Shown here: positions 27,913 through 36,222 of the stretch, in pieces
How the letters are laid out: the number at the start of each line of letters is the position of its first letter
Numbering within the stretch: position 1 is the stretch's first letter
Assembly: GCA_016190815.1 (NCBI GenBank)
Contig: JACPPT010000009.1
Location: forward strand, 1-36,354
Reading direction: 5' to 3'
DNA: 36,354 bases
Source of the DNA: Chloroflexota bacterium
GTDB taxonomy: Bacteria; Chloroflexota; Dehalococcoidia; JACPPT01
Position numbers and translations under genes: made by a program
The notes under the pieces: model-generated
What the model was told of the DNA's origin: nothing
Databases searched by the model: none
Seen by the model: only the letters and a program-made list of their open reading frames with translations

Positions 27913-29364
27913 TTAGATTCGGTGTCTAAGGAAATCGGAAGCCGCTATGCGCAGGGCAGAGTTGGCTCTATCCAGATACTCGTTCACATCCTGAGGGTCA
28001 TCTGCCTCAGGCCTGGCCATCTCCAGGGAAAGGGTCTCCAGAAGATAGGCCATATCACCTCTCGCGGCCTGGTAGCCGGGATAGTTGGAAAATACTATTA
28101 CCTTTCTTGTACCGTTTTCATGGGTGGAGACAGAACGAAGGGTGCCGTCGCCAGACACTATATCCGCATAAATCTGCCCAGCTTTCTGGGGCACCTGCTT
28201 CAACTCCTGCACAGCCTCCTCCAGAGACGCTGGCTCATCGTGGAACTGAAGCTCGGCTTCCTTTCCAGGGATGTACTCAACTTTCTCTTTGGGCTGGCCG
28301 GAGCCTGAAACCAGGGGCATGCCCTTGTATCCGCTCTCGATCCGCCTGAAAGCCCTCCGTATTAGCACAAGGGCCCTGAGGGCGTTTTCCCTGGACTCCT
28401 CCGGGACAACGACCTGACTCTGAGCCAGGATATCCTTCACCCAGGGCTCCATCGCCAAATGCATCGCTTTGTAGATCTGCCTCCAGGCATCTGACTCCCT
28501 GTCGAAGTCGCTCTTATTCAGGTTAGGGGACACAGGGAAATCAATATACACTTCACCCGTAAGGGTGTTGAGGGCAGCGTTATCGGCCGGCCCCGGGTGA
28601 CCGAAGAACTCGCCCTGGGATACGAGTCTCCCATAGCGATAGCATCTTATTCCGCCTCTAACCCCTTCACAGCCATTTTCCGAAACGGGCGCCATTATTC
28701 CTAACCAGCCCCTGAGACTTTTCCCGTCTGGAAGGGCTATCTCAAAAGGCTGCGGCTCCTTGGAGAGAGATATCTCCAGTGGCTTAACCCGCTGGGTTTT
28801 GGGTCCCGCTTTAATGGTTACGATAAGATTGTCGTTCTGAAGAATGGGGCGGTAGACGCTGGATAGCCTTCGTATCAGGTGCCGGTAGGAAACCTTTCTC
28901 TTCAAGCGGAAAAGCTCTATATCAACATAGGCTTCCTCTTTGGGTGCGGGGAAGGGCTGTGGCTCGTAGGCGGTGAAGAACTGCCTGTCTCCCCAGGTTG
29001 GATCAGTTAGCTCCCAGCCCACCTCCTCGCCTCTCTTGGTGCACCGGATCCTGACACCGTGGGCCAGATAGCCTATTGCCGCTTTTCCACCCTGACCCCA
29101 CTGACCAATCCTGGCGGTCTTGTGAGCGTAGCCCCACTTAAGAAAGTTCTCCAGCTCGCCGTAGCCCATGCCCACCTCGCCCTTGCTGCGGATGCGCAAC
29201 CTGTGGGGTGTTATCACAACATCCACTTCCACCGGAAACTGCTGGGTTTTGCCTACCCAGTCGTCAGCGCCGTTGTCCACAAGTTCCAGCAGGGCATCTA
29301 CGGCGCTGGGGAAATTGGCCATAAGAGCCAGACGCATATTGGCATCGAAGGTCTCCTGGATCAT
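27913..29364 (-). CDS. GHKL-type ATPase domain protein (Hsp90/MORC-like), function unknown
   Basis: The N-terminus carries a GHKL ATP-binding fold: LLELVDNGADDW (N-box, about 25-36), a G1-like KGEVGMGYGELENF and the G2-like lid ARIGQWGQGGKAAIGYLA. A second alpha/beta domain similar to the transducer region of Hsp90/MutL/MORC proteins follows (SPNLNKSDFDRES), then a unique C-terminus. ATG at 29364 is preferred because AGGAGG sits about eight bases upstream; the open frame extends to 29451. Bacterial MORC-like ATPases are often tied to DNA or defence functions. No nuclease partner is adjacent; it is a single gene with its own terminator. Confidence 0.75.
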   Translation of the reverse strand: MIQETFDANMRLALMANFPSAVDALLELVDNGADDWVGKTQQFPVEVDVVITPHRLRIRSKGEVGMGYGELENFLKWGYAHKTARIGQWGQGGKAAIGYLAHGVRIRCTKRGEEVGWELTDPTWGDRQFFTAYEPQPFPAPKEEAYVDIELFRLKRKVSYRHLIRRLSSVYRPILQNDNLIVTIKAGPKTQRVKPLEISLSKEPQPFEIALPDGKSLRGWLGIMAPVSENGCEGVRGGIRCYRYGRLVSQGEFFGHPGPADNAALNTLTGEVYIDFPVSPNLNKSDFDRESDAWRQIYKAMHLAMEPWVKDILAQSQVVVPEESRENALRALVLIRRAFRRIESGYKGMPLVSGSGQPKEKVEYIPGKEAELQFHDEPASLEEAVQELKQVPQKAGQIYADIVSGDGTLRSVSTHENGTRKVIVFSNYPGYQAARGDMAYLLETLSLEMARPEADDPQDVNEYLDRANSALRIAASDFLRHRI

Positions 29365-29518
29365 TACCATTCCTCCTCTTATGTTAAGTGTAAAACCGCC
29401 ATTAAGAGACAAAAGAATAAATTCTGAGAACCAGTCTAGCACTTTTTTCATAATATTTCAAGATGTTATCCGAGGAAAATATGCCCAAAATTGCAAATTG
29501 TCGGAAGCTGGAAAACAA

Positions 29519-29560: not shown

Positions 29561-30109
29561 TTAACTGACTAAGAGAAGTTCCAGGACATGCGGCAGGGCA
29601 AGTTTTGCTCGCTCCATAAGGCCCGCCTGGGAAAGGCTTCCAACGGGGTGTGGAACCACGACAAATGGGTAGTCAGGCAATCCCTTTATCCTGGCAGTCG
29701 CCTGGGCTGTGGCGATGAATTGGTCTGTGCAAAGCAAGACCGTCGGCACTCCCCTCTTCTCCAGTTCGATGGCGTCGTGCATACTGCACGAGCTACAAGA
29801 CCCTCAGTCTCCAATGGCCACAAGGGCTACCTGACACTTCCTTGCTATCTCATCCAGAAGCTCCCTGGGAGCTATCACTGAGGCGTTCCTTTTCCTGAAC
29901 GGCAGAGACCCGCCCAACATGAACCTATGCCCAAGGAGGATAGACATCATGTTGAGAATCTCAGTCGCGTTGTGCTTGCTGTTGTCCAAGAGGCCCAGAA
30001 CCCTGCCGTTTAAGGAGGAGAGTCGAGACGCCATCGCAGCTTTGGCCTGAGCTGGCTCCACTGTGGGATCCAGAACCGTTAGCCGACTAACAGAGGTTCC
30101 AATAGTCAT
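29561..30109 (-). CDS. UGSC-family selenoprotein (in-frame TGA read as Sec)
   Basis: Two adjacent same-frame ORFs are separated by a single TGA at 29804-29806. Reading it as selenocysteine gives AIGDUGSCSSCSMHDAIELE, the motif that names the UGSC (seleno)protein family: Sec102-Gly-Ser-Cys105, plus Cys108. The full product is 182 aa. ATG at 30109 has AGGAGA five bases upstream. A 7-bp hairpin with loop GTA begins 12 bases after the TGA, fitting bacterial SECIS rules. The Sec/Cys pair suggests redox or alkylated-thiol chemistry, but the reaction is unknown to me. It is the third gene of an operon with a 346-aa protein 11 bp upstream. No sel genes are in the window. Confidence 0.9.
29775..29791 (-). 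promoter_or_regulatory. bacterial SECIS hairpin
   Basis: On the minus strand TCGTGCA (29791-29785), loop GTA (29784-29782), TGCACGA (29781-29775): a perfect 7-bp stem. The distance from the UGA to the loop is 19 bases and the loop begins with G, both within the known requirements for SelB recognition. Confidence 0.8.
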
Positions 30110-30120
30110 AGTCTTCTCCT

Positions 30121-31161
30121 CTACTCTTTCATCCTGATCAGCTTTGACACCGAACGAGAAGAAATGCCACCACCCCAGAGGGGGATGCAAATGGAGAAGG
30201 GGCCAGCGCCACCACCCCCAACCAGCACATCGATATCCTCTGCATCGCCAACCACCACCTTCATCCGATCTTCATCCCCATGCTCAATAGCACCCGGCAT
30301 TTTCCTAACCCTCTTCCAATCGGCGACGGAGCGCCGAGCTTTTTCAGCAAGGAAGCGTTTAACATCTCTTTTCGACCAGCCATGGCCGGAGATATGGTGC
30401 AGGTGCTCCGGGCTTATGATAACCACAATCTCCGCTTGCTCGTATCCTACGGTAGCCATCGTGTCCGCCACACTGGCGAGGATGTCCTCAGGGGTGTTGC
30501 CGATGAAGTTTGTCACCTGAATAGGGGCCTGGGCAGCAAAAACGGTTACCACGCTTTCCTCCCTGGGAAAACCCCTCTCCACGTGGAAAGGCTCCCAGGG
30601 GCTCAAATCCTCGTTCTCAGCTATGCAGAAACTGTATTTGCCGCCGTGTCCAAAGGTGGACTTGTCCATGACCCCAGGGATAGCGCCGCATACGTTCATC
30701 AGAATGAGGCGCAGCGCCCTTCCAATGGTCGCGTTTGGCCGGAAGCCAGGGCCGAAAAGGTTCACGCCGGAGTTGATGCCCAGCTTTTTAGCTATGGGGC
30801 CGTTGACCACAATAAGCTGGGCTGAGCCCATGGTGCTGGCGGCGCTCCCGTGCAGGTTGAAGGCTTTTTCAGTGACGGCCTCCACAACAGCAATGAGCAC
30901 AGGCATATACTCCGGCAGACAGCCCGCCATAACAGCGTTTATGGCCACCTTTTCAGCAGTGATTGTTCGCCCTCGCTCAGGAACCTCTCCGATGACGTCC
31001 TGGGAGCGCTTACCCGCTTTCTCCAGAAATTCTTCAACTCTTTCGGCGGTGGAAGGCACCACAGGAAGGCCATCGGTCCATCCCTTCTCGTAGTAGAACT
31101 CAATGGCCTCCAGGGCGCTTCCCACCTGATATTGCTTCGAGGAAAGACCTTTTTCTACCAT
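30121..31161 (-). CDS. conserved protein with WTDGLPVVP motif, 346 aa, partner of the UGSC selenoprotein
   Basis: I recognise the N-terminal YEKGWTDGLPVVPSTAERVEE segment as conserved in proteins that accompany UGSC proteins, but not an established function. Other notable parts: MAGCLPEYMPVLIAVVEAV (about 78-96), NLHGSAASTMGSAQLIVVNGP and a Gly-rich C-terminus (VGGGGAGPFSICIPLWGGG). No signal peptide is evident. Gly and His richness around HGSAAST could indicate a metal or cofactor site. It follows the DUF169 gene by 31 bp and precedes the selenoprotein by 11 bp, so the three are one operon. Confidence 0.7.
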   Translation of the reverse strand: MVEKGLSSKQYQVGSALEAIEFYYEKGWTDGLPVVPSTAERVEEFLEKAGKRSQDVIGEVPERGRTITAEKVAINAVMAGCLPEYMPVLIAVVEAVTEKAFNLHGSAASTMGSAQLIVVNGPIAKKLGINSGVNLFGPGFRPNATIGRALRLILMNVCGAIPGVMDKSTFGHGGKYSFCIAENEDLSPWEPFHVERGFPREESVVTVFAAQAPIQVTNFIGNTPEDILASVADTMATVGYEQAEIVVIISPEHLHHISGHGWSKRDVKRFLAEKARRSVADWKRVRKMPGAIEHGDEDRMKVVVGDAEDIDVLVGGGGAGPFSICIPLWGGGISSRSVSKLIRMKE

Positions 31162-31192: not shown

Positions 31193-31972
31193 TTATGGCG
31201 ACTGCTTCAAGTAATCCATAAGCTTGTAGTAGCTTGGCGGAAGGGCTGCCTCAAATCTGAGATATGACGGGATGGGGTAGCGCTGTAGCCCGCTCTCATG
31301 GCCTGCCTTCAGCCCCCTGATGGTGGACTCCACCCTGCTCCATGGCATAGAAAATGCCATCTCATGGTCCTGTGCCATGCCGAAGATGCGGTCGCCGTTG
31401 CAGGGCAGGACGAACTGGCACTCGCCGCTTAGCATGGTCTGGGAGATGATGTCGGCGCAGTCCCGTCCCCCGGCTGCACTGGAGGTCAGGTATCCACCCC
31501 TTTCGTAGACAGCGCCCTGAACGAGCCTCATCACCTGGGCAGAGTCGCCGTAAATCACCACTACATGAGGCTCGAAGGTGACGGCGTGGAGAGGCGAGAT
31601 GAGGACGTGGCTGTACTTGCCATATTCCAGCCTGGGAAGAGCCTCGGCGCTTCTTGCCGCCGCTGCCCCGCTGCCCCGGGAAAGAGACTCGGCAAAGCTA
31701 CCATCCACAAACTTATCTTTGGTGGGCACAAAGCCCAGGGCCAGGGCACCGTACGGGCAGGACTCCTCATCCTTCCCGACAGCCAGCGTCCAGCCGTACC
31801 GGCGGGCCATTCCGATCCCCTGGCACACCGTTACGGGAAATCCCATGTTGCGCTTTGGGAGCCTGGCCTTCTGAGGGATTTCCTCCGCCGACTGGCACAT
31901 CCTTATGGCCAGGGGGAAGGTCTGAGGGCGAACATAAAAGCTCAGGGCTTCGTTTATTTCCTTCAGTTCCAA
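31193..31972 (-). CDS. DUF169 domain protein
   Basis: 259 aa matching the DUF169 pattern: a short helical start (ELKEINEALSFYVRPQTFPLAI), a Cys after it (MCQSAEEIP), and VTVCQGIGMARRYGWTLAVG with a second conserved Cys. Later come ESCPYGALALGFVP and a C-terminal CNGDRIFGMAQDHEMAFSMP. Function unknown; members are common in anaerobes and in Dehalococcoidia. The start is TTG at 31972, with AGGAGA six bases upstream (31979-31984). It is the first gene of the selenoprotein operon. Several cysteines agree with a redox or metal role. Confidence 0.85.
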   Translation of the reverse strand: MELKEINEALSFYVRPQTFPLAIRMCQSAEEIPQKARLPKRNMGFPVTVCQGIGMARRYGWTLAVGKDEESCPYGALALGFVPTKDKFVDGSFAESLSRGSGAAAARSAEALPRLEYGKYSHVLISPLHAVTFEPHVVVIYGDSAQVMRLVQGAVYERGGYLTSSAAGGRDCADIISQTMLSGECQFVLPCNGDRIFGMAQDHEMAFSMPWSRVESTIRGLKAGHESGLQRYPIPSYLRFEAALPPSYYKLMDYLKQSP

Positions 31973-35301: not shown

Positions 35302-36222
35302 TTATAGGCCATAATACTGGCTCAAAGCTTTAATTAGTAGTTGTGTAGCAACGGTGGTAGCGATGTTCCAAGAGACAGTGCCAGCTTTGCTTACCATTTT
35401 ACCTAGCCAAGACTTGACTTTACCACCAAGGTCATTTGGGTTTCGTGAAGGCTCATCGGCATGAATAGCCTCTGAGAGCTCGTCTATATCTTGTTTATCT
35501 AGTCCAATTGATGATAGAAAACTTCGTAGACTATTTAGGTCGTTTTTTGTAATTGTAATTTGAGTATTCTCGATTGAAGGTTGGATACCTGCGGCTAGAT
35601 TGGTAACATTCCCTTGGATGTGCGTATTAAATATCTGGGTGACTTTTTCGTTTGCTATTGGTTTTGTATTCGGTTCTGCCTCTCCCGCGTCTGGTGCCTC
35701 AGCCTCAATCTTTAATGCAAAACTAAGGACACGGTTACGCACCGTGTCCAATAGTGAAGCAACAAAACCTTCTGGTATCACTTTCCAAGCACCAATGCAG
35801 TTCATGCCTTCGAAGATTTTGTCTCCGAATATACGTAAATAATCAGCAGGCCAATTTTCAGCAAATGTGCCCTTCCTTTCTGCATTTTCCAACAAATTGG
35901 AATAGTAAATAATGGGATCCATAAAATACGATTTAGTAAGGTATTCACGATATTTCTCTGGAATAAGCGAAGGAGGTATCGGAATATGGCTAGCAGACGA
36001 CTGAAACACGCCCACGAAATTTCCCCGGGATTCTACATTTTCTCTTATCCGGTATGAAGGAACTTCGTCTGGAGAATTGTAACCATTCAATTCATGTTCT
36101 ACCCATAAATCAAACTCTTTGTTCCCTAAGCGTGCAGCTAATACCTTGCATTTACGCAATAAGGTAGATATTCCTATATTTGTATCTACAACTGCATCAG
36201 TAATTTCTCTGAGAAGTGACAT
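35302..36222 (-). CDS. AbiTii-domain protein (abortive-infection type)
   Basis: 306 aa. The N-terminal about 190 residues match the AbiTii domain: LLREITDAVVDTNIGISTLL, RKCKVLAARLGNKEFDLWV, EHELNGYNSPDEVPSYR and a later YSNLLE. The middle is a Pro/Glu/Ala linker (about 185-200). Residues 205-285 (NTHIQGNVTNLAAG, ITKNDLNSLRSFLSSIGL) look like a bundle, and the C-terminus has a hydrophobic segment (TVSWNIATTVATQLLIKAL). AbiTii proteins occur in phage-defence contexts, sometimes as sensors or effectors. The promoter is at 36241-36269. Confidence 0.8.
   Translation of the reverse strand: MSLLREITDAVVDTNIGISTLLRKCKVLAARLGNKEFDLWVEHELNGYNSPDEVPSYRIRENVESRGNFVGVFQSSASHIPIPPSLIPEKYREYLTKSYFMDPIIYYSNLLENAERKGTFAENWPADYLRIFGDKIFEGMNCIGAWKVIPEGFVASLLDTVRNRVLSFALKIEAEAPDAGEAEPNTKPIANEKVTQIFNTHIQGNVTNLAAGIQPSIENTQITITKNDLNSLRSFLSSIGLDKQDIDELSEAIHADEPSRNPNDLGGKVKSWLGKMVSKAGTVSWNIATTVATQLLIKALSQYYGL

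Follow-up and report, generated by a model that had tools for sequence, protein, structure and literature searches.

Within the window, i.e., the whole stretch of 36,354 nucleotides analyzed here from a Chloroflexota bacterium of the class Dehalococcoidia, the minus-strand frame at 30109-29561 contains a single TGA, ends with the stop codon TAA and reads ...AIGDUGSCSSCSMHDAIE... when the TGA is translated as selenocysteine (Sec). A standard ORF caller gives the first half alone (29804-30190). This is in accordance with an earlier sequence-only reading of this DNA, which had held that the gene is split at the TGA and that its halves share one frame and join as GDUGSCSSCSMHDAIE; read-through indeed yields one minus-strand frame of 182 amino acids. 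The features of the locus are as follows:

31193..31972, minus strand: DUF169 gene (PF02596, 188.8 bits), 31 nt upstream of the WTD gene
30121..31161, minus strand: gene of the WTDGLPVVP ("WTD") protein, 346 amino acids, upstream of the UGSC gene and ending 11 nt before its start
30120-30116, minus strand: ribosome-binding site AGGAG before the ATG at 30109 (direct reading)
30109-29561, minus strand: UGSC-family selenoprotein gene, 182 amino acids with Sec at residue 102 (read-through translation)
29806-29804, minus strand: in-frame TGA, codon 102, the Sec codon of GDUGSC (TGA in nearly all class homologues, Cys in outside homologues)
29791-29775, minus strand: SECIS-type hairpin TCGTGCA-GTA-TGCACGA with a 7-bp stem and a GTA loop, starting 12 nt past the UGA
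29785-29783, minus strand: AGT codon in the hairpin loop, seventh after the UGA (comparison of Sec and Cys genes of the family)
about 29544-29511, minus strand: GC-rich intrinsic-terminator-like hairpin AAAACCCCCGT-ATGAA-ACGGGGGTTTT with a T-run (direct reading)

The AGGAG is a good Shine-Dalgarno sequence and bears out the strong ribosome-binding site that had been claimed, whereas the terminator said to follow the gene fared less clearly: the hairpin and T-run are seen by direct reading, but they are absent from the output of a simple terminator scan.

The read-through protein matched the UGSC family models PF24696 (185.6 bits at a cut-off of 25, E=1.1e-54) and NF041046 (143.2 bits at a cut-off of 125), with both matches spanning the TGA; judged by these profile scores, the match to the family is far beyond chance. 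The window gene agrees with the family throughout, i.e., in its whole-length match, in the UGSC motif and in Sec at the defining position, and the U/C-G-S-C columns of its GDUGSCSSCS stretch are invariant in the alignment (A1). Since UGSC is an already published family (Zhang and Gladyshev, 2008; PMC2398784), for which fusion with an unknown domain was likewise reported in 2008 (Zhang and Gladyshev; PMC2398784), the window gene is a new member and no new family. The novelty lies in the constant association with WTD, the relationship to GrdB/PrdB, the codon signature in the hairpin loop and the number of copies in the expanded genomes; no description of WTD adjacency, co-occurrence and co-evolution with UGSC or of the GrdB/PrdB link was found in the literature searched.

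UGSC exceeded the cut-off in 22 of the 60 class genomes searched, nearly all listed copies in these genomes contain exactly one TGA, and in the alignment the TGA of the class homologues falls on the first position of UGSC. Outside the class, a genome-collection scan that used the Cys codon gathered 33 loci with Cys at the Sec position in Actinomycetota, Pseudomonadota, Myxococcota and Binatota, so that the check on homologues named in the sequence-only reading came out as Sec in nearly all class relatives and Cys elsewhere. Sec and Cys are interleaved in the UGSC tree, with 14 changes by parsimony and at least five forced by well-supported branches. A search of the genome for the Sec machinery, which had also been proposed, was successful for tRNA-Sec (68.6 bits, tca anticodon), SelB (359 bits) and a Sec-type SelD (384 bits) whose frame likewise contains a TGA (CAGUAAK), but not for selA, most likely because this metagenome-assembled genome (MAG) is just 71% complete. 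Among the UGSC-positive class genomes, selA was over the cut-off in 19 of 22, and SelA or SelB was found in all 22 as compared to 13 of 38 negatives (p=1.9e-7, hand tally). Taken together, the sequence comparisons show that the window gene encodes a genuine selenoprotein and adds a member to the UGSC family, as the sequence-only reading had proposed. It might be argued that translation really ends at the TGA, that the codon arose by a sequencing error or that the gene is decayed, with halves that do not form one protein, since standard ORF calling splits the gene and the incomplete MAG lacks selA; however, the same TGA is present in many independent genomes, a complete domain lies downstream, and the AGT codon signature described below is confined to Sec genes, which makes this explanation very improbable. 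That the UGA is read as another amino acid, owing to a code change or an opal suppressor, is to our mind barely credible: the evidence consists of in-frame openness and conservation rather than of the inserted residue, but the genome encodes SelB, SelD and tRNA-Sec, homologues outside the class have Cys instead, and the WTD domains are free of in-frame TGA, which shows that TGA does not generally serve as a sense codon. The selD gene of the window genome (L016:865-1980, plus strand) is itself a selenoprotein gene (LARCAGUAAK), and its frame is ended by two further TGA codons. A second SelB-like match beside a tRNA (C14), considered as an extra Sec system, proved to be EF-Tu beside tRNA-Tyr/Thr.

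The sequence-only reading had further described a perfect 7-bp hairpin with a GTA loop 12 bases past the UGA, and this was located at 29791-29775. The spacing of 19 nt between the UGA and the GTA loop suits a bacterial SECIS with G in the apical loop. Taken alone, the window hairpin is unremarkable (z=-0.19 as compared to dinucleotide shuffles) because the protein sequence itself favours the palindrome, and 17% of synonymous recodings of the window gene gave an equally good fold; the case for a SECIS therefore depends on the comparison within the family. The best SECIS-like hairpin had a median of -8.2 kcal/mol in 67 Sec genes as compared to -3.9 kcal/mol in 36 Cys genes (p=3e-7; p-values are nominal, given the relatedness of the sequences and the different codon usage of the Cys genomes). 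Moreover, 84.6% of the 7-bp stem cells were paired in Sec genes and 65.5% in Cys genes, and the stem was complete in 30 of 67 Sec genes but in only 1 of 34 Cys genes. The serine codon at position +7 was AGT in all 40 Sec genes with Ser there and in none of 35 Cys homologues, whereas AGT accounted for only 8 of 382 Ser codons elsewhere in the same Sec genes. This within-gene contrast is unexplained by codon usage, and AGT at +7 is a synonymous choice that places GU in the apical loop; among the sequence features compared, it is the strongest sign of a SECIS. An Rfam search of the window matched no family. The AGT loop codon offers a simple signature for spotting split UGSC genes in annotated genomes.

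With a profile built from WTD, 104 of 109 UGSC copies were found to have a WTD gene on the same strand, either at a distance of up to 2.5 kb or as a fusion. Fusion, found in 23 of the 104 partnered cases, was accepted only where a single ORF continued through a TGA-free linker; several apparent fusions in read-through ORFs were dismissed because neighbouring genes happened to be in the same frame or because frames overlapped. As the 109 copies were collected via UGSC hits, agreement at the genome level is the cleaner test: an independent search detected WTD in 22 of 60 class genomes, a set identical to that of UGSC, and WTD and UGSC copy numbers per genome were similar (e.g., 8/8, 7/7, 4/4 and 3/3). 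Furthermore, mirror-tree analysis of the pairwise distances of UGSC and WTD gave r=0.87, with 0.12 as the largest value of 500 shuffles, and the same correlation of 0.87 was obtained among 28 UGSC-WTD pairs inside one genome. WTD is hence a conserved and co-evolving partner of UGSC. It had no Pfam, NCBIfam or PDB sequence match; its residues Cys81, Cys179, Arg148, Glu182 and Trp189 are near-invariant. Its structure was predicted with confidence (93.4) but had no good match among PDB folds, the best being fumarase-like with a TM of about 0.26 and an rmsd of 18, which is unusable as an indication of kinship. A scan of viral contigs for WTD was empty.

The suggestion that the upstream genes form an operon with UGSC held for WTD but not, as a conserved arrangement, for DUF169. 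The DUF169 gene is probably co-transcribed with the WTD and UGSC genes in the window; however, phmmer detected no relative of it at the other UGSC loci examined and it is outside the 25 commonest neighbour families, so that DUF169, found beside UGSC in the window only, was dropped as a pathway member. The neighbours of UGSC in the class (n=118) included 23 family-5 solute-binding proteins (SBP_bac_5), 8 family-III CoA-transferases and some amidohydrolases. SBP_bac_5 was enriched beside UGSC-WTD as compared to "other" regions of the same genome, an enrichment that is if anything underestimated since these control regions held more WTD genes. Single-copy UGSC-WTD pairs, including that of the window, had no conserved neighbour. 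Just downstream of the UGSC gene, the window encodes a 512-amino-acid protein (27913-29451, minus strand) without Pfam or NCBIfam match, in which the stretches ELVDNGADD and GQGGKAAIG, recognized by eye, suggest a GHKL-type ATPase. The gene at 35302-36222 (minus strand) encodes a putative phage-defence component with an AbiTii domain (PF18864, 147 bits).

With respect to function, the NCBIfam GrdB model TIGR01917 matched UGSC residues 83-160 with E=2.8e-6 and 26.5 bits, far under its cut-off of 602.2, and no PF07355 match was obtained in the Pfam search. HHalign comparison of the UGSC alignment with PF07355 proteins of the class gave a probability of 93.6 and E=2.2e-7 (single comparison), with Sec placed on Sec. 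These profile comparisons indicate by computation that the Sec site of UGSC is remotely homologous to that of GrdB/PrdB, i.e., of the glycine/betaine/sarcosine and D-proline reductases, with which it shares the following alpha/beta segment and the UxxC(xxC) motif. By contrast, only about 80 residues align, the N-terminal half of UGSC differs, and its partner is WTD, the sequence of which is unlike any known family tested. In a confident AlphaFold prediction for a fused UGSC-WTD homologue (pLDDT 92, pTM 0.92) the UGSC domain is alternating alpha/beta, and the Sec (residue 91) lies immediately ahead of the helix that comes after strand three. Another split selenoprotein family is widespread in the class: short PrdB-like genes (PF07355) in which a TGA interrupts the frame (TTUPVCNRSGG; L153-L165, e.g., L157).

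The computations establish Sec coding by UGSC and its partnership with WTD. We consider it likely, at a probability of roughly three in four, that UGSC is a genuine selenoprotein made by SelB-dependent UGA recoding at the hairpin and that it is the catalytic component of an enzyme formed together with WTD. This two-part enzyme would most likely be a Sec reductase in which WTD binds the substrate and UGSC provides the selenolate. Alternatively, UGSC-WTD might be a general thiol-disulfide or peroxide oxidoreductase for redox protection of the thioredoxin/peroxiredoxin kind, which we regard as unlikely: UGSC has the UxxC motif in common with the thioredoxin-fold UxxC selenoproteins and was assigned a likely Trx fold in 2008 (PMC2398784), but the alternating alpha/beta domain predicted in the fused homologue differs from theirs, no thioredoxin was among the 50 best PDB fold matches of the UGSC model, and dozens of diverged paralogues beside transporters fit substrate catabolism better than housekeeping defence. 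Binding or detoxification of a metal or metalloid, e.g., mercury or nickel, via Sec/Cys ligands is a doubtful alternative as well. The cluster of Sec and Cys, the conserved Cys81 and Cys179 of WTD and the existence of nickel-binding members in the neighbouring solute-binding protein family 5 would be in line with it; however, models of the glutathione, nickel and peptide types all match the family-5 proteins, with scores far under the equivalog cut-offs in the member shown, so that none of these matches is diagnostic, and the nearby CoA-transferases and amidohydrolases suggest organic substrates.

For the two-part Sec reductase we propose, by analogy, the following sequence of events. The UGA at Sec102 would be recoded by SelB via the hairpin just downstream, and a small organic substrate would be bound by WTD. 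The selenolate of Sec102, which forms the UxxC motif with Cys105, may then attack the substrate reductively, as in the GrdB/PrdB-type reductases, whereupon the selenenyl intermediate would be resolved by Cys105 and the Sec102/Cys105 pair re-reduced by a thioredoxin-like donor. In genomes with many copies, the paralogues would probably act on different substrates, many of them brought by family-5 ABC binding proteins from adjacent genes. A family resembling the pyruvoyl subunit or the acetyl-phosphate part of glycine reductase was absent from the commonest neighbour families, and chemistry analogous to GrdB is therefore not assured. Moreover, an anaerobic-style reductase is less expected for the Cys homologues in aerobic-type genera such as Streptomyces, and a few paralogues whose motif contains no Sec or Cys count against the two-part reductase. 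The fixed partner, the fold class and the remote GrdB/PrdB link nevertheless turn a family of unknown function into a testable two-protein enzyme.

The family is strongly expanded in some class genomes. In a 5.0 Mb genome (G027), the count of distinct UGSC genes containing an in-frame TGA reached at least 89 (loci L119-L137 and L174-L235), a lower bound based on about 1.1 Mb of sequence read plus the matches listed by search; one 359-kb contig alone carries 22 UGSC genes, each with exactly one TGA. The median identity of nearest paralogues was 66%, with more than 90% in only 2 of 61, and hence the expansion is not due to strain duplication. This draft genome, with 7% contamination, has SelA, SelB and a Sec-type SelD, and tRNA-Sec was not located among the 150 of 734 candidates scored. 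In a 2.7 Mb genome (G028), UGSC is present in 46 copies or more. The count for G027 exceeds the published bacterial maximum, the 63 selenoprotein genes of a MAG (PMC13188914). That UGSC-WTD represents an undescribed class of two-part selenium-dependent reductases, diversified to dozens or even some 100 or more substrate-specific paralogues and making up the largest known bacterial selenoproteome, is a proposition for and against which we see the odds evenly balanced. Provided that these many copies are expressed, the dependence of some environmental bacteria on selenium would be far greater than has been assumed. Some paralogues depart from the motif: one that is fused to an intact WTD reads GWSGVYT (L132:12003-12497, minus strand) and another reads GVGGSNA (L122:14091-14492, plus strand), both with neither Sec nor Cys and thus possible pseudo-enzymes. 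In a further paralogue (L136:3937-4440, minus strand) the motif reads GDUGTUTSW, with a second in-frame TGA in place of the resolving Cys, possibly forming a UxxU double-Sec site.
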